Positions 11,357 through 55,498 of a stretch of 59,437 bases of DNA are shown piece after piece. The notes beneath the pieces were generated by a model. It saw only the letters and a program-made list of their open reading frames with translations. It did not search any database and had not been told where the DNA came from. The stretch's first letter is position 1. Every line of letters begins with the position of its first letter. Made by a program: the position numbers and the translations under genes. The DNA is from an uncultured Opitutaceae bacterium (GTDB lineage: Bacteria; Verrucomicrobiota; Verrucomicrobiia; Opitutales; Opitutaceae): the NCBI GenBank assembly GCA_937902925.1, contig CALFNN010000022.1, forward strand, positions 1-59,437, in the 5' to 3' direction.

Positions 11357-11368
11357 GCGTCGGGCGGT

Positions 11369-14808: not shown

Positions 14809-15153
14809 TCAGTGAGGATTCCCAATGCCATGCGCGTGCGCCAAATACTCGCCGATCATGCGGGCGCCTTCGACGAAGGCGCGGCCATTCGCGTGCTGCA
14901 CTTTTAGCGTGGCGGGGACGCTCGATGGGCTCGTGGCCAATACCAGCACGGGGCAACTTTGGTTTTTCTCGCCCAACAAAGATGCCAACTCCGGCCGTGG
15001 GCGCGGGAAATCCACATAATGGATGTCGATGCTCTGCTTGAGCGCCGGATAAAACTCCATCAAGCCGATCACCTCGGCACAGCCGGGACAGTAATAGGTT
15101 TCGCCCTGATCGCGAAAATCGTGTTTGAGGAGATACAATTGATCGTGGTTCAT
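14809..15153 (-). CDS. DUF3088 protein, copy 1
   Basis: 114 residues of the DUF3088 family. It has a CPGC pair (YYCPGCAEV) near residue 22 in a thioredoxin-fold-like context and the segment SIDIHYVDFPRPRPEL. Function is unknown in the literature I can recall. A second copy, about three-quarters identical, is at 46051-46395. Copy 1 stands between the nitronate-monooxygenase-like gene and the nitrate reductase cluster, and copy 2 directly follows an NsrR fragment, so both are associated with nitrosative-stress genes. A small palindrome ATACGGGTGTAT lies 15 or so bases upstream of its start. Confidence 0.8.
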   Translation of the reverse strand: MNHDQLYLLKHDFRDQGETYYCPGCAEVIGLMEFYPALKQSIDIHYVDFPRPRPELASLLGEKNQSCPVLVLATSPSSVPATLKVQHANGRAFVEGARMIGEYLAHAHGIGNPH

Positions 15154-16603: not shown

Positions 16604-16661
16604 CCGTGTCCAAGTAAGTTTTTTCTGAGAACGACTTTCCCCAAGCCGAATGAATCGTGTC

Positions 16662-17717
16662 TCATGATCCCTCAATCCTTCCAGCGGAGATCGCCAGCAT
16701 CTGCTCGATCGGTAACCGTGCCCGTTCCGAAATTTCCGCGGACAATTCAATGCGCGGGGCGAGATTCTTCATGCAGTCGCGCAGCTTTTCGAGCGTGTTC
16801 ATTTTCATATAGCGACATTCGCTGCAGCGGCAGCCGTCGGTGGGCATCTGCGTGGCGTCGAATGTAGGCGCGCAGATGAATTCTTTGCCGGGGCATTCCT
16901 TCTTCAGCCGATGGATGATGCCCGATTCAGTGACGATCACGAACTGGCGGGCCGGGCTTGTTCGACAATACGTTATCATTTTCTCGGTCGAACAGACCGT
17001 ATCGGCCAACTCCCTCACTTCGCGCAGGCTCTCGGGATGGACGACCACCTTGGCTCCAGGGAAGCGCTTGCGCAGGCGCAGCAGGTTGTCGCAACGAAAC
17101 TCGACATGCGCGTAACAGTTCCCACGCCAGAGTGTCATCGGCCTCTTTGTCTGCTCCCTGACCCAGGCTCCGAGGTTTTCGTCAGGGACGAATAAGATGT
17201 CTTTGTCCGCAGGGACCGACTCGACGATTTTGACGGCATTGCCACTGGTGCAGATGACATCGCAGAGTGCCTTCACCTCCGCACTGCAATTAATGTAGGC
17301 AATGGTGAAGAAGTTTGGGTTGGTCTCTTGCAGAGCTCGCAACTGGTCTGCCGGGCAGCTCTCCTCAAGCGAGCATCCGGCGGCATTATCGGGCAACACG
17401 ACGAGTTTGTCCGGGTTGAGAATCTTGGCTGTCTCGGCCATGAAATGCACGCCACAGAAGACAATCACTTCTGCATGGGTCGCCGCAGCTTGTTGGGCCA
17501 GTCCGAGCGAATCGCCAACAAAGTCCGCGACGTCTTGAATCTCCGGAACTTGATAATTGTGCGCGAGAATGACGGCGTTGAGCCTGAACTTGAGATCGAG
17601 GATTTCGCGAGCGAGCACGTCGGCATCTCGTGATGAACTCGGATTCCAGAGCTGCGAAAGATCGCCATCGGCAACAGAACTTTGGTTCGATCCGAGAAGA
17701 TTCATGGTATAGGTCAC
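16662..17717 (-). CDS. nadA: Quinolinate synthase A
   Basis: 351 residues. The family features are clear: AHNYQVPEIQDVADFVGDSL near the N-terminus, GVHFMAETAK, and the cysteines that hold the [4Fe-4S] cluster, including the C-terminal GCRCSECRYMKMNTLEKL region. It condenses iminoaspartate and dihydroxyacetone phosphate to quinolinate for NAD synthesis. There is no nadB or nadC nearby, which is odd for biosynthesis and suggests an extra copy. The GTG start at 17717 overlaps the GNAT stop; ATG 17705 is the alternative. The cluster is NO- and oxygen-sensitive, so being in an operon with the RIC repair protein is informative. Confidence 0.9.
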   Translation of the reverse strand: MTYTMNLLGSNQSSVADGDLSQLWNPSSSRDADVLAREILDLKFRLNAVILAHNYQVPEIQDVADFVGDSLGLAQQAAATHAEVIVFCGVHFMAETAKILNPDKLVVLPDNAAGCSLEESCPADQLRALQETNPNFFTIAYINCSAEVKALCDVICTSGNAVKIVESVPADKDILFVPDENLGAWVREQTKRPMTLWRGNCYAHVEFRCDNLLRLRKRFPGAKVVVHPESLREVRELADTVCSTEKMITYCRTSPARQFVIVTESGIIHRLKKECPGKEFICAPTFDATQMPTDGCRCSECRYMKMNTLEKLRDCMKNLAPRIELSAEISERARLPIEQMLAISAGRIEGS

Positions 17718-19500: not shown

Positions 19501-19944
19501 TCAGTAGTCCGGGAATTCTCGCAAATAGCAGGTCGGACTGGACGGTTCAGGCGTATCGTCCCCGGCGGCGGTTGAATGACCCGCCAGCCCTGAATCAGTG
19601 ATGATCCGCTGGAGAGCCTGCGCAGCTTCCTGTGGATCGAAGTCCTCGTGATACGTCTTTTTTACTCCCATTTTGCTGAGGTCGTAATGCTTGTCGGCCT
19701 GGAGACCGTGGCGTTTAAGGATCTGCGCGGCGCAATGCAGCGGGCAGCCGTCCAGCGCGATGATTGGGCGCCCGGATTTGGCGGTTCGCACGAGCGGCTT
19801 CACGTCTCCGCCCACTCCGGCGATGCACGACATCTCGGCCACCTTAAGCCGGTCCAACCGGACGGCGATGTAGTTGGCCATCTGCGCGGCGCTGGAGGCG
19901 CCGGAGCAGGAATAGACCAAGGGAAGCGGCCGGCCTGGTTTCAT
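19501..19944 (-). CDS. DGC-domain putative zinc-binding protein
   Basis: 147 residues. The family signature is complete: YSCSGASSAAQMANYIAVRL at the start, EMSCIAGVGGD, and the ALDGCPLHC motif that names the DGC domain. These small proteins are thought to bind zinc through their cysteines and are common beside Fe-S or nitrosative-stress genes. ATG 19944 overlaps the RIC stop (ATGA), so the two are coupled. The canonical second Cys of the first CSGC-type motif is Ala here (CSGA), a small departure. The C-terminal 30 residues are variable. Confidence 0.85.
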   Translation of the reverse strand: MKPGRPLPLVYSCSGASSAAQMANYIAVRLDRLKVAEMSCIAGVGGDVKPLVRTAKSGRPIIALDGCPLHCAAQILKRHGLQADKHYDLSKMGVKKTYHEDFDPQEAAQALQRIITDSGLAGHSTAAGDDTPEPSSPTCYLREFPDY

Positions 19945-20642
19945 CTCGCACCGCTGGCCAGCGCCCGGGGAAATAACACGTTGTTCTCCTTGTGGACGTG
20001 CTGGTGGGTCTCTTGCTCCAGGTTGGCCAATCCGTCGTAGAGAGCGCGGAAAGTATTACAGGCCCACTCCGGCGGCGAATAGTTGTCGGTCAGCTCGCGG
20101 AACCGGGACAGGGCGGCGCCGGCACGATCGTGTTCGGATTCGAGCTTATCGAGCGCACCTTTCAACGGGGCGGCTCCGGCTCCGCCGGCGGATTCCAGCT
20201 GGCGGATCGCGGGAAAGATTTTTTCTTCCTCCTCCTGCGTATGAGCGGACATGGCCGCGTTGAAACTCTCAAATACCTCGCGCACCTCCCGGAGCCGGGG
20301 TTCATGGTCACCATGCACGGCGGCGACCTTGCGTGTCATGAAATCCAAACGCGGCAGCTCTTCGCGGAGATAACCGTGGTGGATCTGCTCGATGTGATCG
20401 CACAGCGCGGAAAGGCTCAGCGCGGCGGGATCGGACGATGCGGCGGCGGATGGGCCGGCGTCCAAGGCGGCCAGCATGGCGACGACGGTTGCCGCATCGA
20501 GATTCTTGGCGCGGCAGGCGTCGGCGAGCGGCTTCTTTCCGCCGCAGCAGTAGTCGATGCCGAGGCTCTCGAAGATGCGTGAACGGGCCGGCGCAGACCG
20601 GACAATTTCACCGACAGTGGTCTCAACGGTAATCTGATTCAT
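19941..20642 (-). CDS. RIC-type di-iron protein for Fe-S cluster repair (YtfE/ScdA family)
   Basis: 233 residues from ATG 20642. The N-terminal ScdA_N-type domain carries GIDYCCGGKKPL. The C-terminal hemerythrin-like domain has the iron ligands in HIEQIHHGYLREELP, HGDHEPRL, HTQEEEEKIFP, ESEHDRAG and HQHVHKENNVLFP. RIC proteins repair Fe-S clusters damaged by NO or oxidants and are classic NsrR/FNR targets. It is divergent from an Rrf2 regulator and heads the long minus-strand series DGC, PLP enzyme, GNAT, NadA, NMO-like and DUF3088. A TTG at 20663 is an alternative start. Confidence 0.92.
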   Translation of the reverse strand: MNQITVETTVGEIVRSAPARSRIFESLGIDYCCGGKKPLADACRAKNLDAATVVAMLAALDAGPSAAASSDPAALSLSALCDHIEQIHHGYLREELPRLDFMTRKVAAVHGDHEPRLREVREVFESFNAAMSAHTQEEEEKIFPAIRQLESAGGAGAAPLKGALDKLESEHDRAGAALSRFRELTDNYSPPEWACNTFRALYDGLANLEQETHQHVHKENNVLFPRALASGAR

Positions 20643-20692
20643 AGGTAAACGGTGCGCTTGCAAAATTGGATGTCAATGTCCAGTTATCGGTC
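20643..20692. promoter_or_regulatory. Divergent RIC / Rrf2 promoter region
   Basis: Only 50 bases separate the two divergent starts, so both promoters and the operator must lie here or extend into the coding ends. A short direct repeat ATGTC-A-ATGTC stands at 20670-20680. The AT-rich patch is a likely binding site for the Rrf2 protein. No consensus NsrR palindrome is visible. Confidence 0.5.
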
Positions 20693-21154
20693 ATGCAGCT
20701 GATTTCGCGCACCTCCGAATATGCCTTGCGGGCCGTGATCTGGCTGGTCCAGGAGCCAGCGCGTTCGCAGACCACCCGGCAGATCGCCAAGGCCACCCGC
20801 ACCCCGCCGGACTACACTTCGAAGGTTTTGCAACTGCTCGCCAAGGCCGGCGTGGTGCGAAGTCAGCGCGGGCTGGGCGGCGGTTTTCAACTCGTGCGCG
20901 AGCCAACGGACATCACCGTGTTGGAAGTCATCAATGCGATGGATCCGCTGGAACGCATTCACACCTGTCCTCTGGGCCTGAAGGCGCACGGAAAAAACCT
21001 TTGTCCATTGCACTGCGGCATGAACGACGTGGCGCAGCAAATGGAGGCAGCCTTCGCAAAAACGAAACTCGCGGATCTGCTCAACGACGACTCGGCCTCC
21101 GTTCCGTTGGGCATCAAACTAAAGCCCACACGCCGTTCCCCGACCGCGGCCTGA
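20693..21154 (+). CDS. Rrf2-family Fe-S regulator (NsrR/IscR-like)
   Basis: 153 residues from ATG 20693 (MQLISRTSEYALRAV), the typical Rrf2 start. A winged HTH is followed by RGLGGGFQL (wing). Three cysteines follow in HTCPLG...LCPLHC with spacing C-x11-C-x3-C, different from NsrR (C-x7-C-x5-C) and IscR but common in other Rrf2 proteins, so a cluster is likely. It is divergent from RIC, so NO or Fe-S status probably controls the RIC series through it. The effector is inferred. Confidence 0.88.
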   Translation: MQLISRTSEYALRAVIWLVQEPARSQTTRQIAKATRTPPDYTSKVLQLLAKAGVVRSQRGLGGGFQLVREPTDITVLEVINAMDPLERIHTCPLGLKAHGKNLCPLHCGMNDVAQQMEAAFAKTKLADLLNDDSASVPLGIKLKPTRRSPTAA

Positions 21155-41521: not shown

Positions 41522-42924
41522 CGTGCACCTCCAGGTTTCGTCGCGGGCGCCAGCGCGGGCACAGCCCAGAGGTGTTTCAAAACCCCAAGCATATCGGTGA
41601 CGAACAGCGCCACGCCCACTGCCAGCAACCAAGCTCCGACCTGGAGCCACGGTTCGCTCAACGTCCAGGCCCCGACCAGCAACGGCGCGACCGCGATACC
41701 TTGCAGCGCGAGTCCCCAGCGTTCGATCCGTGGATGCGTCAATGCACCCGCCGACGGCGTCGGTCCACGACCGACGCGGGGACCGTAGGCGCGCATCCAG
41801 GTGAGAAATGGCACGATCTTGCACATCATTCCGGCAATGCAGGGCAAAAGTCCGGCGGCGAGCCCGAGGATCGCGTAGACCATCGCGCCGAATCCGCCAG
41901 GCGCCGAGCCCCACGGTGAACCCGGCGACACGAGCACAACCCCCGCGATGGCCGCGGCGCACACGCCCACGCCGCCGCGCAGGAACGAACGCGTTCCCGG
42001 ATCGAGCGCGCGCTTCTTGCGCGTGGCGAGCGCACGCCTGAGACCGACCCCGGAACAAATCATACCGGCGGTGATGGCCAGCGCGGCCAGCAGCCCGAGC
42101 GGCGCGAAGTGCCAGACCAGCGCGGGCGCGAGTGCGAGTAGACCGGCTTGCGATAGGCCGAGGCCGAGGTTCGCCAGCCGCCAGTCGCGCACTTCGCCGA
42201 GCGTGAACATCGGCACGAGTTGAAACCCCACCCCTTGCAGCAACGTGAAAAAGAATCCCACGAGCCCGAGGTGCGCATGCGCGCGCAACAGAGCCACCGG
42301 GTCGATCGGAATGAAATTCCAATAACGATTCGCCGCCAAAAGCAGCCCGACCAGAACCGTGGTCATCAGCCACCCGGCTGCGAGCGTAAGCGACCAGGCG
42401 ACCGTGCCGCGCCGGCCCGAGTGTCGCACCGTCCGCCACGTGTTGACGGCGAAGAGGACAATGCCGAGTGCGACGGCAAAACCGAAATGCCCGAGCAACC
42501 GCAGATCCCAGCGCCAAAATGAATACACCATTCCCGGCACGCCGACCGCATGCAGCCCGAAGTGCCACCAGCCGTGCCGCTCATTGCACAGCGTCGTCCC
42601 GAGTGCGACGGGAGCGAGTTGATAGACCGCGCCGCACGCCACGGTGACGAAGAAACCCAGCACCCAGGCGTGCGTGAGCGCGACGACCTGAGGATGCGGG
42701 TGCGGCAGGCTCAGCAGCGTTGGCTGTGCCACGAGCAGCGCGGTCGCGGCCACGAGCCAGGCCAGCCCAAGTCCCATGAACGCCAGCGGCAGGCGGCCTT
42801 GCGTCGCGAGCCAGTTGCCCGAGAATGCCGACGGGCGGACATGCGTGGCCGGGCGGGCTGGCCGCGAATCAGGCGCGCGCGAGGGTGGTGATCCAACTGC
42901 CGTCAGGCTGTTCATTGCAGTCAT
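41518..42924 (-). CDS. NnrS/heme-copper-oxidase-like polytopic membrane protein
   Basis: 468 residues, about twelve hydrophobic helices. Starts are ATG 42924 (MTAMNSL) or 42915, overlapping the DUF2249 gene. Helix His motifs: ALTHAWVLGFF, RHGWWHFGLH, and RAHAHLGLVGFF, the last reminiscent of the heme-copper HxH in cbb3/NOR subunits or of NnrS. Such proteins are thought to bind heme and copper and act in NO tolerance. Since no NO reductase is found here, this is the only heme-type membrane candidate in the denitrification set. Not assignable to NorB by eye. Confidence 0.65.
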   Translation of the reverse strand: MTAMNSLTAVGSPPSRAPDSRPARPATHVRPSAFSGNWLATQGRLPLAFMGLGLAWLVAATALLVAQPTLLSLPHPHPQVVALTHAWVLGFFVTVACGAVYQLAPVALGTTLCNERHGWWHFGLHAVGVPGMVYSFWRWDLRLLGHFGFAVALGIVLFAVNTWRTVRHSGRRGTVAWSLTLAAGWLMTTVLVGLLLAANRYWNFIPIDPVALLRAHAHLGLVGFFFTLLQGVGFQLVPMFTLGEVRDWRLANLGLGLSQAGLLALAPALVWHFAPLGLLAALAITAGMICSGVGLRRALATRKKRALDPGTRSFLRGGVGVCAAAIAGVVLVSPGSPWGSAPGGFGAMVYAILGLAAGLLPCIAGMMCKIVPFLTWMRAYGPRVGRGPTPSAGALTHPRIERWGLALQGIAVAPLLVGAWTLSEPWLQVGAWLLAVGVALFVTDMLGVLKHLWAVPALAPATKPGGAR

Positions 42925-43405
42925 GGCGGAATCCGCGTTGTCCGGCCTCGCCGAATAGGTGGCACGGCTCACGGTCCGTGTGGGCGCGCAAGGTGGCACC
43001 GGCGGGTAACGACTCCAGCGCATCGAGAATCCGGACCAGCGGTTCGGGCGGCTCAAGCCCGCGCACGTCGATTTCCTGCACGCCGTTTGAGGCGGCAGGT
43101 GCGGCCACCCGGGCTGCGGCCGGCTGGGCGACGGGCTGGAGCTTGGTTATTTTCACGCGGAAATCCTCCGGCCCGCGCTCCACGTATTCCCACGAAAACG
43201 CGCCGGGAAACTCGGCGTCGAATTGATAGCGCAGCGGCACGGGATCGTGATCGTTGAGCAAAATGAAATGCTGGCCGACAGGCAGATCGAACCAGCGTTG
43301 GAAAATCTGGGCGTGCTTAACGCGGCAGGGAATCGGGCGAACATCGAACACGACTTCGGATTCGAGGGCCGCCGCGGAGGTGGTTTCAGTGGTTTGTGGT
43401 TTCAT
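42869..43405 (-). CDS. Double DUF2249 protein
   Basis: 178 residues from ATG 43405. Two DUF2249 repeats: LESEVVFDVRPIPCRVKH to WEYVERGPEDFRVKITK (first), and NGVQEIDVRGLEPPEPLV to DGSWITTLARA (second). DUF2249 has a TusA-like fold with small ligand or redox roles and is often beside denitrification and heme-copper genes. The frame is open further upstream, but this start gives the first repeat. It overlaps the membrane-protein start. Confidence 0.85.
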   Translation of the reverse strand: MKPQTTETTSAAALESEVVFDVRPIPCRVKHAQIFQRWFDLPVGQHFILLNDHDPVPLRYQFDAEFPGAFSWEYVERGPEDFRVKITKLQPVAQPAAARVAAPAASNGVQEIDVRGLEPPEPLVRILDALESLPAGATLRAHTDREPCHLFGEAGQRGFRHDCNEQPDGSWITTLARA

Positions 43406-43445
43406 GATTTCGGGTTGAACGGCGCGCGAACGGGCGCACCTGGTT

Positions 43446-43742
43446 TCAAAATGGAGGAGTTGCCGCCTGGCGTCGCACGACGGTTCGCCAAGTCCCATCG
43501 GGCAGTTCGCCGGTCTCGGCGCTGACAGCATGGACGGCCAGCGCTCGCAAGAGTTGGGTCGGCTCGACTCTGCTACGTAGAAACTGAGGATAGCCCGTCG
43601 GGATCGCGGTCAGTGCGGCGAGGACGGCCTTCAACTGGTTCGGCGGCGCAGAGCCACGCGCGTCGAGTTCCGTCGGCCACGCGACCGCCGGCGCCGCGCC
43701 GCGATCGTCGAGGGGCGTTGGCGAGTGTGGTTGGCCTTTCAT
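43446..43742 (-). CDS. Single-domain DUF2249-like protein
   Basis: 98 residues. ELDARGSAPPNQLKAVLAAL to LPDGTWRTVVRRQ follows the DUF2249 pattern of its neighbour. It is the first gene of the operon; the FNR box TTGATGCAGGTCAA is at 43778-43791, about 43 bases before its ATG at its centre. Together with the following gene it gives three DUF2249 domains in a row. Confidence 0.72.
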   Translation of the reverse strand: MKGQPHSPTPLDDRGAAPAVAWPTELDARGSAPPNQLKAVLAALTAIPTGYPQFLRSRVEPTQLLRALAVHAVSAETGELPDGTWRTVVRRQAATPPF

Positions 43743-43777
43743 GCGTGGCAGTATCGCACCAACCGCCGCGTCGCGCC

Positions 43778-43791
43778 TTGATGCAGGTCAA
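43778..43791. promoter_or_regulatory. FNR/DNR-type box of the DUF2249 operon
   Basis: TTGAT-GCAG-GTCAA, nine of ten consensus bases. It is centred about 42 bases before the start of the first DUF2249 gene, an activator position. Confidence 0.7.
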
Positions 43792-43865
43792 TACGAACCT
43801 GACTTCCGGGCAAAACATCGGTTAGCCTTCGCGGGCGCGAATGCATGACGGCGGTGAAGCGCCGC

Positions 43866-44783
43866 CTAGAACAACACGTTGTCGATGAATTGCGCGAGGT
43901 GCTCCGGCAACTTTCGGTGCCGCCGCACGACGACGACCAGTTCGCGGACGAAGCGATCCGGCCAGCGCAATCGGTGCAACGACCGCTTGCCGCCATAGAG
44001 CGCGAGTGCGCGCACCGGCACGAACCCGACACCCATCCCGAGCGCGACGAGGTTGATGATCAAATCGAAGCCCGGCAACTGCATGCCGGGCGGCACGGCA
44101 CAGCCCTGTCGGGCCATCCACGTGCGCAGCCGGCGGCCGGTGTTTGCCCGTTCATCGAGCAGCAGCCAATTCTGTCGGTTCATCCATGCGACCCGGTTCG
44201 CCCGCCTCGTCGCCTGCGCTGCGAATTCGCCGGCGGCCACCGCGCCGCCGATCAAAGTGAAGGTGTCATTGAACCGGTGCGTCACCCGCACGGTTTGCGG
44301 CAGCCGCCGCGGCGGGCACAACACGCCGACATCGAGTTCGTTGGCTTCGAGCCCCGACAATATCTCCGCACTCGGCAGGTAGAAGACGCGGTAGCCCACC
44401 TGCGGGAGCCGCCGGAGGTTCGCGTGAAAAAATCCCGGCAGATAAGCGAGCCCAACTGACCGCGACACACCAACTCGAATCTCCTTCTTCGCACCGGTGA
44501 ATTCCTCGCGTAGTGTTTTCAGCGTCTGGTCGATGTCTCCGACCAGCCGGACGGATTCGCGCCACAAGGCTTGGCCGGCAGGAGTGAGCCGCACGTTGCG
44601 GGTCGTCCGCTCGAACAAACTCAGGCCGAGGCTCGCCTCGATGCCCTGCACCTGTCGCGTGACGGCGCTCTGCGTCACGCCGGCGACCTCGGCGGCCTTG
44701 GTAAAGCTGCGGTGCTGCGCGACGAGGTGAAAGAGATGCAACTCGTAGAGATCGAACGGCGTGGTCGGAAGATACTCATTCAT
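43866..44783 (-). CDS. LysR-family transcriptional regulator
   Basis: 305 residues from ATG 44783 (an ATG at 44792 adds three). The N-terminal HTH is typical: FHLVAQHRSFTKAAEVAG then TQSAVTRQVQGIEASLG. The C-terminal substrate domain is a periplasmic-binding fold, effector unknown. It diverges from the ferredoxin and truncated FTR1 genes. The intergenic AT-rich stretch at 44790-44815 (ATCAATCCATACGACTAATG) is a possible LysR site. Confidence 0.9.
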   Translation of the reverse strand: MNEYLPTTPFDLYELHLFHLVAQHRSFTKAAEVAGVTQSAVTRQVQGIEASLGLSLFERTTRNVRLTPAGQALWRESVRLVGDIDQTLKTLREEFTGAKKEIRVGVSRSVGLAYLPGFFHANLRRLPQVGYRVFYLPSAEILSGLEANELDVGVLCPPRRLPQTVRVTHRFNDTFTLIGGAVAAGEFAAQATRRANRVAWMNRQNWLLLDERANTGRRLRTWMARQGCAVPPGMQLPGFDLIINLVALGMGVGFVPVRALALYGGKRSLHRLRWPDRFVRELVVVVRRHRKLPEHLAQFIDNVLF

Positions 44784-44863
44784 GTGATGCATCAATCCAT
44801 ACGACTAATGAATTTATCGCGCAAGCCCGCCGGGTGTATCTTCGCCTCGAATCCAACACCACC

Positions 44864-45106
44864 ATGGCTATTCCCTCCGACCGCCTCCCCCAGAACGTTC
44901 CCGGCCGCTATTATGTCGATGCCCAGTGCATCGATTGCGACCTCTGCCGCGAAACCGCGCCGACCATCTTCGGCCGCCACGACGAATCGGGCTATTCATT
45001 TGTCCGGCGCCAGCCACTGACGTCCGAGGAAATCGCGCTCGCGGAAGAGGCGGTCGAAGGCTGCCCGGTGGAGGCGATCGGCAACGACGGCGGCGACGCG
45101 GCGTGA
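44864..45106 (+). CDS. Single-cluster 4Fe-4S ferredoxin
   Basis: 80 residues from ATG 44864. QCIDCDLCRETAP and GCPVEAIG give the four Cys for one [4Fe-4S] cluster, the small monocluster ferredoxin pattern. The function is electron transfer to an unknown partner; it stands 15 bases before the FTR1 chimera and diverges from LysR. Confidence 0.88.
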   Translation: MAIPSDRLPQNVPGRYYVDAQCIDCDLCRETAPTIFGRHDESGYSFVRRQPLTSEEIALAEEAVEGCPVEAIGNDGGDAA

Positions 45107-45121
45107 GCGCCGGATAAAGCC

Positions 45122-46012
45122 ATGCTCTCGAGTTTTCTCCTAGCGCTGCGCGAAGGCACCGAAGCCGCGCTCGTGATCGGCATCGTGCTTGGCGCGCTGC
45201 GGAAAATCCGCCGCCCCGACTGCGCACGGGTCGCTTGGCTGGGCGTGCTCACCGCGGTCGCGGCAAGCGTTCTGGCCGCGGTCGCCTTGCGGGCACTCGG
45301 CTTGAGTTTCACCGGTCGGGCCGAGCCGATCTTTGAAGGCTCCACGCTGTTCGTCGCGGCTGGGTTGCTCACCTGGATGATCGTCTGGATGGCGCGTCAG
45401 TCGCGCAAACTGAAGGTCGGCCTCGAAGCGGACGTGCGGCAGGCAGTGTGCGTGCCGGGCCGGCGCGGGGTGTTCGCACTGATGTTCGTCGCGGTCGCGC
45501 GCGAGGGACTCGAACTGGCGATTTTTCTTACCGCATCCGCCTTCGATGCCGGGACCGCGCAGACGATCGGAGGCTCGCTGCTGGGTCTCGCGGCGGCAGC
45601 GTTTTTCGGATACCTGCTGTTCACGTGCACGTGGCGATTGGACCTGCGGTGGTTCTTCCGTCTCACCGGCGCGCTCTCGCTCCTGTTCGCTGCGGGGCTG
45701 GTGGCGAAAGGCGTGCATGCGCTGGGGAGGGCGGGGTTTCTCGCCACCCGCCGCGGAATGGGCGGTGGCTTCCGCCTCGCGCTGCCGCCGGAGAAAACCA
45801 GTCTCGGAGCCGTCATTCGCCTCACGCAAGCCAATGACGCCATGGTAGATTGTCAGGATGGCCCCGCTACGCTCTGCCGCATTTTTCCGGCCTGCCGTTT
45901 AAGACAAGCGTTGAAGGAAGCGAGTGGGGCGTTCTTCGCTGTGCTTGATTGCTACTCCCTGGCCAGCCTGGTGAAACCAAGGGCCGAGTTGAAAGAGCTT
46001 TTGAAAATCTGA
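45122..46012 (+). CDS. In-frame chimera: truncated FTR1 iron permease joined to an NsrR C-terminus
   Basis: 296 residues. Residues 1 to about 203 are an FTR1 permease with REGTE and REGLE, and helices to GLVAKGVHALGRAG. From there on the sequence is the C-terminal half of NsrR: FLATRRGMGGGFRLAL (wing), then Cys in DCQDGPATLCRIFPAC with C-x7-C-x5-C spacing as in NsrR, and ending AELKELLKI. The last FTR1 helix and the NsrR HTH are both missing. The join is at GRAGF, a phrase that both parents can have, so a deletion by short homology is likely. Neither half should work as its parent. A genuine fusion function cannot be excluded. Confidence 0.82.
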   Translation: MLSSFLLALREGTEAALVIGIVLGALRKIRRPDCARVAWLGVLTAVAASVLAAVALRALGLSFTGRAEPIFEGSTLFVAAGLLTWMIVWMARQSRKLKVGLEADVRQAVCVPGRRGVFALMFVAVAREGLELAIFLTASAFDAGTAQTIGGSLLGLAAAAFFGYLLFTCTWRLDLRWFFRLTGALSLLFAAGLVAKGVHALGRAGFLATRRGMGGGFRLALPPEKTSLGAVIRLTQANDAMVDCQDGPATLCRIFPACRLRQALKEASGAFFAVLDCYSLASLVKPRAELKELLKI

Positions 46013-46027
46013 CGGACCCAATCCGTC
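46011..46027. terminator. Short hairpin after the FTR1-NsrR chimera
   Basis: GACGGA-CCCAA-TCCGTC, a 6-bp stem with a 5-base loop overlapping the stop of the chimera. There is no T-run, so it is weak or not a true terminator; it lies 24 bases before the DUF3088 start. Confidence 0.3.
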
Positions 46028-46050
46028 GCAATCCCAAGGGGAAGATCATC

Positions 46051-46395
46051 ATGAACCACGATCAATTGTATCTGCTGAAGCCAGACTTCCAAGATCAGGG
46101 CAAAACCTACTATTGCCCGGGCTGCGCCGAGGTCATTGGCATTCTTGAATTTTATCCCGAACTCAAGCGGAGTATCGACATTCACTACGTGGATTTTCCG
46201 CGTCCTCGTCCGGAGTTGATTTCACTGCTGGGCGAGGCCAACCAAGGCTGCCCGGTTCTGGTGCTTGCCACCGTGCCGCAAATTCTCCCGGCGCAGCTCA
46301 ACGTGCAACGAGCCAACGGACGCGCCTTCGTGGCGAACGCGAGGGAGATCGGCGCCTATCTCGCCCATGTCCACGGCATCGGGCTGCCGCATTGA
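46051..46395 (+). CDS. DUF3088 protein, copy 2
   Basis: 114 residues, starting MNHDQLYLLKPDFQDQGK and about three-quarters identical to the copy at 14809-15153. The CPGC pair and HYVDFPRPRPEL are kept. It follows the NsrR tail of the chimera by 38 bases, so in the parent organism it was probably cotranscribed with nsrR. An AAGGGGAAG ribosome-binding site lies just upstream. Confidence 0.82.
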   Translation: MNHDQLYLLKPDFQDQGKTYYCPGCAEVIGILEFYPELKRSIDIHYVDFPRPRPELISLLGEANQGCPVLVLATVPQILPAQLNVQRANGRAFVANAREIGAYLAHVHGIGLPH

Positions 46396-46416
46396 ACCAT
46401 CATTCAACCTCAATAA

Positions 46417-47778
<1,362 letters not shown>

Positions 47779-47822
47779 ACCAAGAAAACAAACCCATTTG
47801 ATCAAAGCGGCCATCATCACAC

Positions 47823-48290
47823 CCTACTATCCCCGGCACCGGCATCAGGAGTTCTTGAAGTTCCTCCAACGGCTAACGGCTCGACGCCGAGTTCCCCGCC
47901 GGGAAACACCTGCACCTGATCCTCGATAACTATGGCACCCACGGCCACCCACGCGTCCAGCGCTGATTGGCTCGGCATCCCCGGTTTGCGCTGCACTTCA
48001 TCCCCACCAGCTCGAGTTGGCTCAACCTCATTGAACGCTGGTTCGCCGAACTCAGTCAGAAGACCGTGCGTCGCGGTGTTTTTCACAGCGTGCGCGATCT
48101 GCAACGCGCGATCGCTGAGTTTCTCGCCGCTTGGAATGCTGCTCCTGCACCTTTCGTGTGGACCGCCAGCGTTGAGTCTCTCCTAGAAAAAATTGCCCGC
48201 GCCCGCCAACGCCTCGAGCAGATCTCGCCGGGCTCCATGCAACCCAAACCCACGCACGCAAACGACGCCCAAACGCCCCGACGCGCATGA
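47823..48290 (+). pseudogene. IS630-family transposase remnant (C-terminal part, frameshifted)
   Basis: The C-terminal DDE region of an IS630 transposase survives in pieces: HLHLILDNYGTHGHPRVQR in one frame, ending at a stop near 47966, then from about 47967 in another frame RHPRFALHFIPTSSSWLNLI and ERWFAELSQKTVRRG, which hold the last catalytic Asp and Glu motifs. The N-terminal two-thirds is missing. At least two frame changes make it inactive. Confidence 0.85.
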
Positions 48291-48296
48291 AAACAG

Positions 48297-48341
48297 CCCG
48301 TCCCACTACCTCGCACTTATGCCGACCTATTTGCGGGACAC
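48297..48341. repeat. Possible IS terminal inverted-repeat fragment
   Basis: CCGTCCCACTACC and GCGGGACACTAC face each other just after the transposase remnant (about 48297-48350), the kind of end expected for the inactive IS630 element. No matching left end was found, consistent with truncation. Confidence 0.3.
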
Positions 48342-48493
48342 TACACTAGCTAGTGGAAACACCCGACAATCTGCTGGTCGACGAACTGAGCGTGAGACCC
48401 CTGGACTCGAATCCGCCTTGATCGTCCCGTCGCCTCAGCCCGACCGGCTCGATTAGAATGATGGGCCGCAGCCGGAGGCAGAAGGAATTGCCG

Positions 48494-50440
48494 ATGCTGA
48501 AACCACCTGTTCCCATGGGAAATCTCATGCTTGTCCTGACGTTGCTTATCGGCGCGCTCGCACCCGCTCAGTTGCGCGCCGAGACCTCTTCGGTGCAAGT
48601 CGCCTGGCGCCTGCTCGACTACATCGCCGTTGACTACCCTGGAGCAGTTCGGGATGGCAAGGTCATCAGCCAAAGTGAATTCGCCGAAATGACGGAATTC
48701 GCGGCAACCGCCCATCAGCGGATCGACACCTTGCCGGCTACCAATGCGAAACGTCATCTACAGCATCAGGTGGCGGCATTACAGGGCCTCATCGGCGGCA
48801 AAGCGCAGCCCGCTGCCGTTGCGGCGGCAGCACGCTCGCTGGCAACCGACCTCATCAGGGTCTTCCCGGTGCCAATCACACCGACGAAGCCACTCGATTT
48901 TGACCGCGGACGAAAGCTGTTCGCTCGATCCTGCGCGAGCTGCCACGGCCCGAACGGCGACGGCCATGGTCTGGCTGCGGTAGGCCTGCAACCACCACCC
49001 ATTGCCTTTACCGCCCGAAAACGCGCCCGCGAGCGCAGTGTGTTCGCGCTCGAGCAGGTTATCGAGCAGGGAATCCCCGGCACCAGCATGGCCAGCTTTG
49101 CCGCGCTGCCGTCGCAGGACCGCTGGGATTTGGCCCTCTATGTCAGCGCCTTCGCTTACCCGGCAAGCTTGGCATCCGAAGGCGAGTGGATATGGAAAAG
49201 TGATTCGGCGCTACGCGCCCGGATCGACCTCAAAAGCATCGTCACCACAACGCCGGCTTCGCTGGCTGAAGGGATCGGCGTCGGGAAAGCCGACGCCGTC
49301 ACCGCCTATTTGCGTCGTCACCCGGCGGCGGTTCTTGAGTCAACGACCGGCCCGGTCGCGCTCACCCGCACCCGATTGAACGAGGCGCTGACGGCCTACG
49401 CCAAGGGCGACCGCAAAGGGGCGGCCGATCTGGCGCTGTCGGCCTATCTTGATGGCTTCGAGCCGGTCGAGCCAATCCTGTCGGCGCGCGACCACGCACT
49501 CATGGTTCGAATCGAAAGGGCGATGGGTGAGCTGCGTGCCGGTATCGCCGAGGGCCGGCCGCTCGATGAAGTGCGGAGCCAGGCCGCCGCGCTCGACGCG
49601 CCGTTCACCGCCGCGGAATCGGCCCTCGCTCCTGGCGAAGCGTCCGCTGTGTCCAGTTTCCTCGGCGCGTTCACGATCCTGCTGCGGGAAGGGTTGGAAG
49701 CCCTCTTGATCGTCGTCACGATGGTCGCCTTCCTGCGGCAAACAAATCGCGCCGACGTGCTGCCCTATGTGCATGGCGGTTGGCTCACGGCTCTGGGGGC
49801 GGGCGCACTAAGCTGGGCTACCGCCACCTATTTCATCGACATCAGCGGCGCGAGCCGGGAGATGACGGAAGGTTTTGGCTCGGTCTTCGCTGCCTGCGTG
49901 CTTTTGTGGGTCGGGGTTTGGATGCATGGCAAGAGCAGCTTGGCCGCGTGGCAGCGCTATATTCGCGGCAAGTTGAACCACGCGCTCAACGGCCGTGCGG
50001 GCTGGCTTCTGTTCAGCTTGTCTTTCCTCGTCGTCTATCGCGAGGTGTTCGAGACCATCCTGTTTTATGCCGCGATCTGGCATCACGGAAATGGCGGCAT
50101 CGTTTTGACAGGGGCCGCGGCGGCGGTTGTTGCCCTGCTCGTCATCGCCTGGATGATGCTGCGCTACAGTCGCACGCTACCGATCAACCGGTTTTTCGCC
50201 TACAGCTCGACGTTGATTGCGGTGCTGGCAATAGTTCTGACCGGCAAAGGCGTGGCGGCGTTGCAGGAGGCAGGCTATCTGCCCATCCATCCGCTCGCGG
50301 GCTTCCCCCGGATCGCAACCCTGGGGCTTTTCCCCACCCGTGAAGGCATCGTCGCAATGCTGGGCATGATCATCCTGTTGGCGGTCAGTTTCGCTTATAA
50401 TTATCGCAAGATCAAAAAGGAGATGCAATCAACCGCGTAG
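48494..50440 (+). CDS. Cytochrome c-FTR1 iron permease
   Basis: 648 residues from ATG 48494 with a signal peptide (LMLVLTLLIGALAPAQLRAE). A helical N-terminal part precedes a single c-type heme domain (CASCHGPNGDGHG, Met ligand probably in GTSMASF). The last 280 residues are FTR1 with REGLE and REVFE in seven helices. Such fused permeases are thought to import iron, with the cytochrome oxidising Fe(II). It stands between the IS630 remnant and nirK, so it is in the shuffled block. It is a complete counterpart to the truncated FTR1 at 45122. Confidence 0.9.
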   Translation: MLKPPVPMGNLMLVLTLLIGALAPAQLRAETSSVQVAWRLLDYIAVDYPGAVRDGKVISQSEFAEMTEFAATAHQRIDTLPATNAKRHLQHQVAALQGLIGGKAQPAAVAAAARSLATDLIRVFPVPITPTKPLDFDRGRKLFARSCASCHGPNGDGHGLAAVGLQPPPIAFTARKRARERSVFALEQVIEQGIPGTSMASFAALPSQDRWDLALYVSAFAYPASLASEGEWIWKSDSALRARIDLKSIVTTTPASLAEGIGVGKADAVTAYLRRHPAAVLESTTGPVALTRTRLNEALTAYAKGDRKGAADLALSAYLDGFEPVEPILSARDHALMVRIERAMGELRAGIAEGRPLDEVRSQAAALDAPFTAAESALAPGEASAVSSFLGAFTILLREGLEALLIVVTMVAFLRQTNRADVLPYVHGGWLTALGAGALSWATATYFIDISGASREMTEGFGSVFAACVLLWVGVWMHGKSSLAAWQRYIRGKLNHALNGRAGWLLFSLSFLVVYREVFETILFYAAIWHHGNGGIVLTGAAAAVVALLVIAWMMLRYSRTLPINRFFAYSSTLIAVLAIVLTGKGVAALQEAGYLPIHPLAGFPRIATLGLFPTREGIVAMLGMIILLAVSFAYNYRKIKKEMQSTA

Positions 50441-50670
50441 CCATCAAAGCCCGTGGGCGCCATCACGCCAAGGCCGGCTACAGGGACCTGCGTGTTGCAC
50501 GAACAAGCCCGCGCAACAAGCTTCTTGCCGAGGCAACAGCCGCCCCAACCTTGCCAAAACCCGATCTCAATCTCATATTGCTTTGAACCACGGTCGCCCG
50601 CCGGCGGTCCATGTTCTATATCCACGCTCGGCCTCATCCGGATCCAAACGCATAAAACCATTCCAAGATT

Positions 50671-51882
50671 ATGAAACCGTCCGCCTTGGTGTTCACGACC
50701 CAAAAGGCAAGTTTCATGCCGGCAACGACCGGTGACCTGCTGCCGATCCGGACAATTCGGGGCCGGTGCAACGAGTCAGCGCGGTGGCCGACCGCGATCA
50801 GACATCTGTTGCTTGGCGTTGGAGCAGCCTTGCTGCCGGTCGCGCTGCCAGCGACAGCAGTCGCCGCAACCCCGCCACTTGAACGCATTTCGGAAACGCT
50901 GGTGCCGCCGCCCAATTTACCCGCGCACGAGCAGGCGGATCAACACCCACCCCGCATCGTGCAGGTCACCCTGACGGTGCGCGAAAAGCAGATCCAAGTG
51001 GCACCGGGCGCTATGATTTGGGCGTTGACCTACGACGGCAGCGTGCCTGCGCCAATCATCGTGGTGCACCAAAATGACTACCTGGAACTTACCTTGATCA
51101 ATCCGGCGACCAACTCACTCACGCACAATATAGACTTTCATGCCGCGACCGGGGCGCTGGGTGGGGCGGAGTTGACCTACGTGGCTCCCGGCCAGGAGGC
51201 CGTTCTTCGCTTCAAATGCATCAAGACGGGCGTATTTGTCTATCACTGCGCACCGGGCGGCGCCATGATTCCGCTGCATGTTGCCTCGGGGATGAACGGC
51301 GTGCTCATGGTGCTTCCCCGCGAGGGGCTGACGGACCGGCAGGGACGCCCGTTGCACTACGACAAGGCCTATTATGTTGGCGAGCAAGACTTTTATCTCG
51401 CCCAAGATAAGGACGGGAATTACAAAAGCTACGCAGCGGCGGGAGGGAATTTCGGCGACATGCTCGGGCTGATGAAGACGTTGACTCCAACCTTCGAGGT
51501 GTTTGAGGGCAGTGTGGGGGCGCTGGAGGGAGAGCACGCGCTCACGGCCAACGTCGGCGAAAATGTGTTGTTCATTCACAGTCAAGCCGACTTGGATACC
51601 CGGATACACTTGATTGGCGGGCACGCCGACTATGTCTGGATGGGTGGCTCTTTTGCCAACCCTCCGCAACGCGACTATCAGACTTGGTTCGTGCCGGCTG
51701 GCAGTGCGGTGGCTGCCATGTATAGATTCCGCCAGCCTGGCACCTACGCTTATCTGAATCACCAACTGGCCGAAGCCGTCTTGCTGGGGGCGGAGGCTCA
51801 AGTCAAAGTTTCTGGCCAATGGGACGATGATCTGATGACGCAGGTGCAGAAACCCGGCCCGATTCCGAACCCGAAAAGATGA
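50671..51882 (+). CDS. nirK: Copper-containing nitrite reductase
   Basis: 403 residues (ATG 50716, preceded by AAAAGGCAAG, is a good alternative start). After a signal ([21 protein letters not shown]) come the cupredoxin domains: [29 protein letters not shown] with the type 1 Cys, His and Met, and [12 protein letters not shown] with the type 2 His. It reduces nitrite to NO in the periplasm. No FNR box of the type found elsewhere in this region is visible upstream, so it may be controlled otherwise or have come with its own promoter. It ends 135 bases before the convergent ptsI. Confidence 0.96.
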
Positions 51883-51912
51883 CGTTCGGCATAATCGATG
51901 TGTCGCCTAACC

Positions 51913-51927
51913 GGCCCTGGCAGGGCC
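51913..51927. terminator. Hairpin between nirK and ptsI
   Basis: GGCCCT-GGC-AGGGCC, a perfect 6-bp GC stem with a 3-base loop 31 bases after the nirK stop and between convergent genes. No T-run follows, so strength is uncertain. Confidence 0.5.
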
Positions 51928-52017
51928 GCCAGTCCTCGGCCCGACAACCCGGTCAGACCACCTCCGAGGATCAATGAAGGTTCATCGATCATGCGGTGGA
52001 TGATTTCCGCCACTTGG

Positions 52018-53874
52018 TCACACGGGGTGTGCGGCGGCCTCACCGCATCGATCAGCCACGCCCAGGCAGGCCTTGACTTCGGCGATGGTGCCGGCGGCGA
52101 GGACCCGAGCCGCCAATTGCCGCGCCGCGGCCATGCTGAGTGAGCACACCACACGTTTGATCTCCAGAATCTCTCCCGGCGCCACGCTGAATGACGTTAC
52201 GCCCAGGCCCAGCAGCAAGGCGGTATACGCAGGGTTGCCCGCGATCTCGCCACAAAGCGAGACGGCCTTCCCTTCGGCCGCAGCCGCATCGAGCACAAAC
52301 TTGAGCGACTGGATGACCGCGGGATGCAGCGGCTCGTAGTAGGCCGCCATCTCCATGCTCGTGCGATCAGTCGTCAGCAGGTATTGCACGAGGTCGTTGG
52401 AACCGATGCTGAGGAAATCCGCCTCGCGCGCGATCCACCGCGCGGTGACTGCGGCCGAGGGCGTTTCGATCATCGCGCCGATCAGGATGCCTGCGTTGAA
52501 CGGTTGACCTTCGCGCCGTAGCTCCTCCTTCGTGCTTTCGACGGCCGCCCGCGCCGCGATGAATTCCTCAACGCCGCCGATCATGGGAAACAAGAGCGAT
52601 ACGGGATGCGTGGCGCTCAACCGCAGGATGGCGCGCAACTGCGTGCGCAAAATTTGCGGATGACCCAGTAGCAGCCGTGTTCCGCGACGCCCAAGCGATG
52701 GATTAGCCTCGGCCGGGAGCGGGAAATACGGGAGCAGCTTGTCGCTGCCGACATCGAGGGTTCGAATAACCACGTTGCCCGGACGGACGTGATCGGCCGC
52801 GGTCCGGTAAACCTGATATTGCTGCTCTTCGGTCGGAAACTGAGCGTGTGCAAAAAAGGCGAATTCGGTGCGGTAGAGTCCGATGCCCTCGGCGCCGAAG
52901 GCCGCCGCCATCGCAGCGTCAGCGACTTTGCCGACGTTCGCATTGAGCTTGATCGCCACGCCGTCGCTCGTCACGGCGGGCACGTCGATCAGGTCTTTCA
53001 AGGCGTTACGCCGCGCGTCCAGGTCCACCTGAAGCCGGTCATATTCGCGTTGGATGTCAGCCGTTGGGTTGATGAAAACGCGACCGGCGAGGCCGTCGAC
53101 GATCAGATGATCGTTGGGTTTGATTCGTTGGGTGGCGCCATCCGCATGGATGACGGTCGGGATTCCCAGCGAGCGCGCGAGAATCACCGCGTGGGCCGTG
53201 GCGCCACCCCGCTCGGCCACAAGGCCGCGGACCTTGTTTTGGTCCAGGCTGGCGGCAAGCGATGGCAACAACTCGCGCGCGACGATGATGCTTCCCGCGG
53301 GCAGATCCCGGATCGTCGTCTCCTCGTGGTGCAGCAAATGACCGAGCAACCGCCGCGCCACATCGCGCACGTCGGCGGCGCGTTCGCGGAACACCGGGTC
53401 GTCGATCTGGTTGAACGCCGCAGTGAGTTTTTCGGCGGCGTCGCTCACGGCCGCTTCGACGTTGATTTTGCTGCGGAGGCAGCGCTGCGTGATTTCCTTC
53501 CGCAGCATGGGATCGTGTAGCATCTCGGCCTGCGCCGCGAAAATCGCAGCCTCGGCGTTGCCCGATCTTTGCTGGATTTGGCTCTGCAAGACGCGCAGTT
53601 CGCCGTCCGCTGCACGTAGCGCGGCTTCGAGTTTCTCGATTTCCTGCGGCACCTCGGCGTCAGCCACTGCGCGTCGTGGCACAACGACCGATTCGTCGCA
53701 GCGGCAGATGAAGGCCGGACCTCGCGCCAGGCCCGCCGACGCCGCGACGCCAAGGATCATCGCGCGGTTCTCGACGGCGGTGGAAGACGGAGTGGCGACA
53801 TCGGCTGCCGAGGACGACCCGACACCGACGGCGGCTTTATCCGTGGCAATCGCTGGCACTTTGACGTAGGGCAT
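52018..53874 (-). CDS. ptsI: PTS enzyme I (phosphoenolpyruvate-protein phosphotransferase)
   Basis: 618 residues, 35-40 more at the N-terminus than standard EI. The active-site His is in ERGGATAHAVILARSL; the PEP-binding and catalytic segments follow: GIGLYRTEFAFF, LDVGSDKLLPYF, DFLSIGSNDLVQYLL and SLCGEIAGNP. It phosphorylates HPr from PEP. No HPr or EII is nearby, so the partner must be elsewhere. The FNR box at 53927-53940 is 52-66 bases upstream of the ATG, which ties it to the nitrogen-oxide regulon, an unusual setting for EI. Confidence 0.93.
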   Translation of the reverse strand: MPYVKVPAIATDKAAVGVGSSSAADVATPSSTAVENRAMILGVAASAGLARGPAFICRCDESVVVPRRAVADAEVPQEIEKLEAALRAADGELRVLQSQIQQRSGNAEAAIFAAQAEMLHDPMLRKEITQRCLRSKINVEAAVSDAAEKLTAAFNQIDDPVFRERAADVRDVARRLLGHLLHHEETTIRDLPAGSIIVARELLPSLAASLDQNKVRGLVAERGGATAHAVILARSLGIPTVIHADGATQRIKPNDHLIVDGLAGRVFINPTADIQREYDRLQVDLDARRNALKDLIDVPAVTSDGVAIKLNANVGKVADAAMAAAFGAEGIGLYRTEFAFFAHAQFPTEEQQYQVYRTAADHVRPGNVVIRTLDVGSDKLLPYFPLPAEANPSLGRRGTRLLLGHPQILRTQLRAILRLSATHPVSLLFPMIGGVEEFIAARAAVESTKEELRREGQPFNAGILIGAMIETPSAAVTARWIAREADFLSIGSNDLVQYLLTTDRTSMEMAAYYEPLHPAVIQSLKFVLDAAAAEGKAVSLCGEIAGNPAYTALLLGLGVTSFSVAPGEILEIKRVVCSLSMAAARQLAARVLAAGTIAEVKACLGVADRCGEAAAHPV

Positions 53875-53971: not shown

Positions 53972-54682
53972 TCACGCCGTGGCTCCGGCGTAGGCCCTGA
54001 GGCGCGCGCCATCGAGCACATAGATTCTGGAACCCGCTACGCGAATGACCCCTTCCTTCCGCAGCCGGGCAAAGGTGCGGGAGAGCGTTTCGCTCGTCAC
54101 GCCGATTTGACTGGCCAGCACGTTCTTCGCCACGGGCAGATCAAACACCGCGGGGCACCCGGCGGCGGCGGCGGGACTCTGCCGCAACAGCCATTCGGCG
54201 AGGCGCGACTCGACCTGACGCCCTCGCGAGTCCTGCAGCAATCGCAGCAGTTCCTTCAGGTGCAGGCTCATCGACGCGAGCATTTGCAGCGCGAGGTCGG
54301 GCTTCCGGCTCAGGACATCGCGGAAATGCGCTTTGCGCACGAGGATTACCCGTGAATATTCCAGAGCCATCGCGTTGGCGGGATAGCGGTCCATCGCCAT
54401 CGCGGCTTCGGCGAAGCTCTCGGGCGCGCGAAACACCGAGAAAATCTGCTCCCGCCCGTCTGGCGTGACAAAGAAGATGCCGACCTGACCGAGTTGAATG
54501 ACGTGAAAACCATCCACCGGTTCGCCTTCACGAAACAGCACCTCGCGTTTTTCGAGGCTGCGGATGCGGCAGCCCTCCGCGATGGTCGCGAGATCTTCGG
54601 ACGACAATCCGGCGAACATCCGGCACTGCCTTAGGCCGGCGATGAGCACCGTGAGATGATGATCGAGGGACGCATCGCGCAT
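53972..54682 (-). CDS. Crp/Fnr-family regulator (DNR-like)
   Basis: 236 residues from ATG 54682 (GTG 54712 is possible). The cyclic-nucleotide-like domain holds MFAGLSSEDLATIAEGC and GEPVDGFHVIQLGQVGIFFV; the HTH has VTSETLSRTFARLRKEG, with the E--SR recognition residues that read TTGAT in FNR. It lacks the N-terminal Cys group of oxygen-sensing FNR, so it is DNR/NnrR-like. It is next to ptsI, and five TTGAT-N4-ATCAA boxes in the window fit it. Confidence 0.9.
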   Translation of the reverse strand: MRDASLDHHLTVLIAGLRQCRMFAGLSSEDLATIAEGCRIRSLEKREVLFREGEPVDGFHVIQLGQVGIFFVTPDGREQIFSVFRAPESFAEAAMAMDRYPANAMALEYSRVILVRKAHFRDVLSRKPDLALQMLASMSLHLKELLRLLQDSRGRQVESRLAEWLLRQSPAAAAGCPAVFDLPVAKNVLASQIGVTSETLSRTFARLRKEGVIRVAGSRIYVLDGARLRAYAGATA

Positions 54683-54793
54683 GGCATCGAGGCTGGCGCA
54701 TTGCACCCTCACATTTCAATCCATGACTGTGGCAGTAATGCCTATGCGGGTATGATATTTCTTTTGGCCTCTTCTCCGGCCCGCGAAATCATA

Positions 54794-55021
54794 TCACTGT
54801 TTTTCGAGTAGCCGGATGAGTCGCAGAACGACATGAAATTGGCGCAGACGTTTACCTTGCTCCCAATCCGATACCGTCTGCTGAGAAACGCCGACTTCGC
54901 GCGCGAACTGCCCTTGGCTCAACTCAAGCCGCTCCCGCAATCTCCGAATCGCGGCGGCTAGCGCCGTGATCGAACGCGCGGTCGGTTTCGTCGGCAAACG
55001 GTTCATCTCGTCAGGCTTCAC
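54794..55021 (-). CDS. Small XRE-type regulator
   Basis: 75 residues from GTG 55021 (ATG 55006 possible). The HTH is LRERLELSQGQFAREVGV followed by QTVSDWEQGKR, typical XRE. Stand-alone; no obvious target. Lies between the Crp/Fnr gene and a response regulator. Confidence 0.85.
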   Translation of the reverse strand: MKPDEMNRLPTKPTARSITALAAAIRRLRERLELSQGQFAREVGVSQQTVSDWEQGKRLRQFHVVLRLIRLLEKQ

Positions 55022-55072
55022 AGACCACCGCCTTCGTCGAAGCCTGCACGTGTCGTCGGCGCTCTCGGCGTT

Positions 55073-55498
55073 TCATGGCGTGCTTTCGATCACTTGCCGA
55101 ACAATCGCCAGCAAGGCGTCGAGTTGCACAGGCTTGCTCAAAATGTGATCGACGGCCAGTGCGCGGTAAGCTTCGACCTCGGCATCACGCAGACGGGAGC
55201 TGTGAACGACGATGGTGCCGGAGAACGCGGTATCGCGAAGTTTCGAGACCAGCGCCAGACCCGATCGGCGGGGCATTTGGTGATCTGTGATCAGCAGGTG
55301 GAAAAACTTCACGTCGGCGGTGATTCGCTCCAGCGCCTCCTCGCCATCCGCCACGCGCTCGACGTGGTGCCCCTCGCGCTCCAACACGCTCTTTACCAGG
55401 AAGGCGATTGGATCGTCGTCCTCCGCGCAAAGCACCCGCAGCGCCTTCCGTCCGTGAGCGTTGGTTGGCTGCGCCCGTTCCCGCGCCCCGCGGTTCAT
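55073..55498 (-). CDS. Single-domain response regulator 1
   Basis: 141 residues, only a receiver domain: CAEDDDP (acidic pocket), LLITDHQMP (phospho-Asp) and SKPVQ (Lys). There is no output domain, so it acts on a partner protein. It overlaps the second regulator by 4 bases (stop/ATG). Confidence 0.88.
   Translation of the reverse strand: MNRGARERAQPTNAHGRKALRVLCAEDDDPIAFLVKSVLEREGHHVERVADGEEALERITADVKFFHLLITDHQMPRRSGLALVSKLRDTAFSGTIVVHSSRLRDAEVEAYRALAVDHILSKPVQLDALLAIVRQVIESTP

Follow-up and report, generated by a model that had tools for sequence, protein, structure and literature searches.

Chimeric genes at the endpoints of insertions and deletions are a known kind of event, in which a brief stretch common to two partial genes links them in frame. 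The gene analysed here has that likeness and differs only in the genes involved, the pairing of an FTR1 permease with an NsrR-type regulator being new to us. Its first ~203 residues resemble an FTR1/EfeU permease, with both REGxE motifs and with the ferredoxin and LysR-type neighbours in the same order as in relatives G529, G003 and G033; unlike such permeases, it has an Rrf2 tail where the G529 gene continues for ~90 codons that include the last helix. That tail in turn resembles the NsrR/RirA repressors of the Rrf2 family in its wing, its C-x7-C-x5-C cysteines, the helix that follows them and a DUF3088 neighbour (as at loci L073 and L074), whereas it is without the helix carrying Asp8 and Arg12, the recognition helix and a promoter of its own, and stands behind a membrane protein. 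For the NsrR of S. coelicolor, passages of PMC5411485 describe a cluster bound by three cysteines of one subunit and, as fourth ligand, by Asp8 of the other, and report that the D8A change abolished DNA binding. DUF3088 is referred to as thioredoxin-like in a section of PMC3091736. A search of the literature in PMC gave no paper pairing NsrR with DUF3088, or combining NsrR, FTR1 and nitric oxide.

The window, by which we mean the whole stretch of DNA analysed, comprises 59,437 nucleotides of an uncultured Opitutaceae bacterium. Within it, the FTR1-Rrf2 chimera is very probably the scar of a junction, left by insertion of a gene block together with an in-frame deletion between FTR1 and nsrR, as judged from comparison of sequences.

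Two halves of one reading frame

The chimera (45122-46012, forward strand) starts with ATG and encodes 296 amino acids in an unbroken frame. Residues 1-203 match Pfam FTR1 (PF03239; 129.9 bits against a gathering threshold of 25.3, E 1.5e-37, profile positions 1-211 of 284), and residues 194-285 match Pfam Rrf2 (PF02082; 67.6 bits, E 1.6e-18, profile positions 40-131 of 132). In intact relatives the same profiles are covered at positions 1-267 of 284 (FTR1 of G529) and 1-131 of 132 (regulators of L073, L074 and G405). An earlier sequence-only reading had described an in-frame chimera between FTR1 and the C-terminus of NsrR, and the single open frame with its two Pfam halves bears this out.

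The NCBIfam models are less decisive. The chimera scores 184.3 bits with EfeU (NF041756, cut-off 255), 72.3 with RirA (cut-off 193) and 62.5 with NsrR (cut-off 182; the NsrR/RirA models are NF008240 and NF008886). The intact FTR1 proteins of G529 and G003 likewise stay under the EfeU cut-off (219.8 and 228.1 against 255), as do the intact regulators of L073, L074 and G405 with both regulator models (100-116 against 182 for NsrR, 101-112 against 193 for RirA). Thus, the low scores of the chimera do not come from the fusion alone, and the models do not separate NsrR from RirA here, since the intact regulators miss both cut-offs. We label the tail nsrR because of its gene context and of the operator-like palindrome described below.

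The FTR1/EfeU half (45122-45717, forward strand) has 77% amino acid identity to the intact FTR1 of G529, with REGTE at residue 10 and REGLE at residue 127. Six helices are predicted in it; the seventh and last, predicted from hydropathy at residues 242-260 in G529 and 255-273 in G003, is absent from the chimera, in agreement with the earlier reading. The NsrR/RirA-type C-terminal part (45725-46012, forward strand) retains the wing, the three cysteines and the following helix, and is 53% identical to the L073 regulator and 51% to that of L074. It aligns from about residue 41 of an intact homologue, so that the first ~45 residues, with Asp8, Arg12 and the recognition helix, are gone; Asp8 and Arg12 are both kept in the intact regulators of L073, L074, L174 and L175. 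The cysteines C244, C252 and C258 form the C-x7-C-x5-C pattern, which had been called intact, and the next gene (46051-46395, forward strand, with its own ATG) does encode a DUF3088 protein, as had also been proposed (PF11287; 114.9 bits against a gathering threshold of 26.4).

The ancestral locus and the inserted block

The genes on either side of the block belong to a locus that is uninterrupted in relatives. On the left are a LysR-type regulator (43869-44795, reverse strand; Pfam LysR; 95% amino acid identity to G529 and 75% to G003) and a single-cluster ferredoxin (Fer4_13; 44834-45106, forward strand; 93% and 83%), which ends 15 bp upstream of the chimera. On the right is a ptsI-like gene (52018-53874, reverse strand; TIGR01417 profile positions 1-562 of 565), whose 3' end is altered at the right breakpoint, 52066: where the G529 form has ~31 final codons, this gene has ~15 other residues (52018-52065), and the domain is nearly complete. 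The order LysR-ferredoxin-FTR1-ptsI is common to G529 and G003 and is also the order of the flanks in the window. FTR1 and ptsI are convergent, with a gap of 13 bp in G003, a genome of one contig, and an overlap of four bases in G529. The best explanation of these arrangements is an ancestral layout in which LysR on the reverse strand was followed by ferredoxin and FTR1 on the forward strand, the latter facing ptsI almost without a gap. Against it, ptsI adjoins FTR1 in only two (G529 and G003) of the four relatives whose FTR1 region was examined; G033 has DUF2249 genes after FTR1 instead of ptsI, and G412 carries its ptsI on the opposite side of LysR.

Both breakpoints can be read from the DNA of G529, a member of the same family. 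Positions 42147-45717 of the window correspond to 6529-10122 of its contig L172 at 85.5% nucleotide identity, and positions 52066-53018 correspond to 10489-11441 of the same contig at 90.9%. Between these two matches G529 has 366 bp, made up of the FTR1 end and the ~31 final ptsI codons, and the window has 6.35 kb instead. This 366-bp interval has no significant match in the window's 6.0 Mb genome (the next best covers 23 bases at E 0.009), and no remnant of FTR1 was seen beside ptsI when the six frames of 51880-52100 were read by eye. The proposal that the fusion arose as a block was assembled into the FTR1 locus agrees with this comparison. The accompanying proposal, in which a deletion took away the end of FTR1 and the beginning of nsrR, fits as far as it goes; it is insufficient alone, and an insertion is also required, because the 6.35 kb between FTR1 and ptsI have replaced the tail of ptsI as well.

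The block (45718-52065) consists of the truncated nsrR, the DUF3088 gene, gdhA, an IS630 remnant, a cytochrome c-FTR1 gene, nirK and ~180 bp beyond. The gdhA gene (46429-47778, forward strand) encodes an NADP-type glutamate dehydrogenase. The IS630-type transposase remnant (47967-48290, forward strand) reaches 50 bits with the NCBIfam IS630 model (cut-off 100, profile positions 245-298 of 299) and 25.1 bits with Pfam DDE_3 (cut-off 28.6), and has an in-frame stop just upstream. The cytochrome c-FTR1 protein (48458-50440, forward strand) has a last helix predicted at residues 629-647, and nirK (50671-51882, forward strand) encodes a copper nitrite reductase (TIGR02376, 464 bits). At its right end the block has an open stretch of 73 residues, for which no plasmid match appeared at E 0.01. 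In G005 and G052, FTR1 matches lie in open frames of 730 and 704 codons, similar in length to the cytochrome c-FTR1 gene of the block.

Base composition changes at the left edge of the block, where GC drops from 0.67 to ~0.55. GC3 is 0.81 in the FTR1 half, 0.68 in the regulator tail, 0.69-0.76 in the four other block genes and 0.77-0.81 in three native flank genes. By itself the GC step says little, because a similar dip (0.58 at 54500-55249) occurs outside the block and the block itself climbs to 0.67 inside the cytochrome c-FTR1 gene.

Units of the kind found at the left end of the block exist intact in other genomes. At L073 and L074, both from Verrucomicrobia MAGs, an nsrR gene (5542-5970) with its N-terminal part is immediately followed by DUF3088 (6001-6345), so that the nsrR-DUF3088 unit postulated from the window alone is real. 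These are at least two cases among the best 80 of 360 DUF3088 loci, a lower bound since several of the 80 are short or end near the match; in L082 and L145, from the same 80, an Rrf2-like match lies at another place in the DUF3088 flank. At L175 (genome G405, 6927-10008) the two genes share one run without being adjacent: ferredoxin comes first, then nsrR, then a sigma factor of the ECF type (Pfam), and an unnamed gene and DUF2231 separate these from DUF3088. In the Verrucomicrobiales MAG of L072, gdhA directly follows DUF3088, and the gdhA of the block is 93% identical to that gene and 86% to the one in G048, the other 28 matching relatives lying at 56-76% (75 other genomes searched).

Upstream of nsrR, a palindrome of the type TGTATTTCAAATACA is present with one mismatch in L073 and with none in L074 and G426. 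G405 has a weaker palindrome before nsrR and a better site, with one mismatch, before the ferredoxin gene; its run from ferredoxin through nsrR, the sigma factor and DUF2231 to DUF3088 is a possible NsrR-controlled operon that would include a sigma factor. Sites for the NsrR-type palindrome TGTATTTNAAATACA at up to one mismatch occur in four of seven genomes (G426, G405, G529 and G003); there are none at this threshold in the window's genome or in G033 and G412, and none within the window at up to three mismatches. The absence of operators from the window's genome is at most suggestive, since G033 and G412 are likewise without sites, and G529 and G003 have sites despite showing no close regulator match at E 1e-9.

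Position and origin of the join

The relatives also place the left junction. Intact FTR1 sequences read KGVHEFNEIGW (G529), KGVHELNEAGW (G033) and KGVHEFNEAGW (G003) at this point, intact regulators have a sequence like VHDLGRSGYL (VKVVHDLGRSGYLETRRGIGGG in L074), and the chimera has AKGVHALGRAGFLATRRGMGGG. Thus, the two families meet at V-H-x-L (45711-45724, forward strand), a short stretch coded alike and in equal codon phase in FTR1 and nsrR, and the blastn match to the intact G529 FTR1 gene ends at 45717. The sequence-only reading had put the join at a GRAGF phrase shared by both; GRAGF belongs to the regulator side, and that part of the reading falls. Because V-H is in equal codon phase in both genes, a crossover there is automatically in frame, which accounts for the continuity of the reading frame. 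Microhomology at the join is plausible: the FTR1 of G529 and the nsrR of G405 have nine bases in common there, a match that is neither significant nor proof, as the parental nsrR is missing and eight-base words common to FTR1 and nsrR gene pairs are frequent (6-35 per pair).

In the simplest version of the proposed history, a block nsrR-DUF3088-gdhA-IS630-cytochrome c/FTR1-nirK would first have been inserted near the 3' end of ptsI. A deletion between the V-H-x-L stretches of FTR1 and nsrR would then have removed the end of FTR1 and a scrap of ptsI, along with the promoter and the initial ~45 codons of nsrR. The frame may have been kept because a stop at the join could cause transcriptional polarity. 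The breakpoints, the uninterrupted relatives, the intact donor-type units and the missing parts are all visible, which makes this a clear example of a gene block stitched into a chromosome; the order of events, the deletion mechanism and the function we infer. The intermediate is likewise deduced, since FTR1 was not found ahead of an intact nsrR-DUF3088 pair, an arrangement that the earlier reading had suggested looking for, in any relative.

One complex replacement would give an identical final structure. Incoming DNA would have recombined between FTR1 and ptsI and removed the 366 bp at once, and the truncation of both flanking genes is as expected from such an exchange; two illegitimate joins would, however, be needed in one event. 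We consider this single step possible though rather unlikely. It is a variant of the junction scar in the order of events, so that the odds of the two overlap.

A different matter is whether the join exists in the chromosome at all, as an assembler could have joined two unrelated sequences at 45711-45724. The window is one whole contig of a draft genome of 105 contigs, and the join sits at the composition step. Against this, beyond the block the contig resumes the ancestral locus it had left, matching at 91% identity the contig of one relative that also covers the left flank, the genome has no loose FTR1 3' end or FTR1 C-terminus elsewhere and no second close copy of the regulator (other Rrf2 matches are at 25-35%), and the join keeps the frame. 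Because both sides rejoin one locus, two bracketing false joins would be needed. The two-sided synteny with G529 thus opposes an assembly join, which we regard as highly improbable.

A stable family of fused proteins was looked for as well. Searches with the whole protein found the same fusion in none of 94 and 249 other genomes (overlapping sets), and outside the window's own genome no match from the FTR1 side extends beyond residue 233 of 296. Across 175 loci, the sole cases with both halves on a single strand are five copies, overlapping one another, of the locus in the window itself. Scanning contigs for the complete fusion yielded 52 pattern matches, none of them a confirmed relative; with the tail alone, 288 genomes were searched and the best 30 loci inspected. 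With no second occurrence in relatives, family or collected loci, a stable fused family, which the earlier reading had named as one case that would speak against it, is rejected for the genomes searched. An unfused neighbourhood of similar genes was seen at L071, a Polymorphobacter plasmid, where FTR1, hmp, DUF1971 and truncated haemoglobin genes adjoin an NsrR-like gene (1-3339).

State of the product and its transcription

Most likely, the protein works poorly or not at all as a permease, and its sensor tail is without function. It is very unlikely that the tail acts as a DNA-binding repressor, because its first ~45 residues, with Asp8, Arg12 and the recognition helix, are lost. For the permease half, the positive-inside rule allows the tail to be placed from the charges of the loops between the six predicted helices: lysines and arginines number 5, 7 and 2 after helices 1, 3 and 5, and 2 and 0 after helices 2 and 4. 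Provided that the native topology persists, these charges would place the tail outside the cytoplasm. Single-sequence structure prediction of the chimera was too poor for use (mean pLDDT 50.9).

Against G529, dN/dS is 0.18 for the FTR1 half, 0.08 for LysR, 0.15 for ferredoxin and 0.13 for DUF2249 (the last compared with G529 only; the G529 ptsI was left out, its match covering <60% of the query). Lineage-specific changes in the FTR1 half, window against G529, number 12 against 6, 18 against 9 and 9 against 13, none of the differences being significant. Neither dN/dS nor the relative rates support reading the FTR1 half as an old pseudogene, and together with the open frame they speak against complete decay. 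The tail deviates at two of 14 strongly conserved columns (I33T and E43Q, in alignment numbering). The comparison set was made from 30 loci, merged to 28 homologues after removal of duplicates, and excludes the five own-locus copies and loci that do not have the three-cysteine pattern; 18 of the 28 deviate at none of these columns, five at one, two at two, and the three most distant at four to six. These observations fit a rather recent scar, or weak selection. Damage to the permease may have been tolerable owing to the cytochrome c-FTR1 protein of the block, in which the last helix is predicted.

The open frame could alternatively be that of a functional chimera, a permease whose cysteine-rich NsrR-type tail senses nitric oxide or iron and tunes iron uptake. 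Such a role would be in keeping with the intact C-x7-C-x5-C and both REGxE motifs, with an FTR1 half free of clear pseudogene-like acceleration, and with neighbouring genes for nitrogen oxides. Yet the protein occurs once among the genomes searched, it lacks Asp8, Arg12 and the recognition helix, the tail is predicted outside the cytoplasm (native topology assumed) and it carries I33T and E43Q at conserved positions; in our judgement this reading, like misassembly, is highly improbable. The narrower proposal of a working membrane protein, in which a three-cysteine nitric oxide or iron sensor stripped of DNA binding acts on the iron permease, we likewise hold to be highly improbable, and if true it would mean that chance recombination had created an iron gate responding directly to nitric oxide or redox state. 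A scar is the likeliest product of this event, which is unusually well mapped. An odd domain combination such as FTR1-Rrf2 can be a scar, which is relevant for automated annotation.

Ferredoxin, chimera, DUF3088 and gdhA form a tight co-directional run with gaps of 15, 38 and 33 bp, and the first genes of the block are for this reason perhaps under a native promoter: DUF3088 and gdhA may now be read from that of ferredoxin and FTR1, in place of the nsrR promoter. In 44700-52200, terminator-like patterns number six against 7.4 expected, two of them overlapping inside the FTR1 half, and promoter-like patterns are somewhat in excess (five against 1.8 expected). One promoter-like site (9/12), at 46392-46419 just upstream of gdhA, means that gdhA may have its own promoter.

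The nsrR-DUF3088 and DUF3088-gdhA pairs in Verrucomicrobia offer a lead for a role of the thioredoxin-like DUF3088 protein in the response to nitrosative stress. The window contains a second DUF3088 gene (14812-15153, reverse strand), 80% identical to that of the block and directly after a nitronate-monooxygenase-like gene (15179-16750, reverse strand; Pfam NMO, 54 bits). At 19941-21154, a gene for the iron-sulphur repair protein RIC is divergent from a different Rrf2 regulator (20666-21154); at L174 (genome G426) and L073, it is nsrR itself that occupies the divergent position beside RIC.
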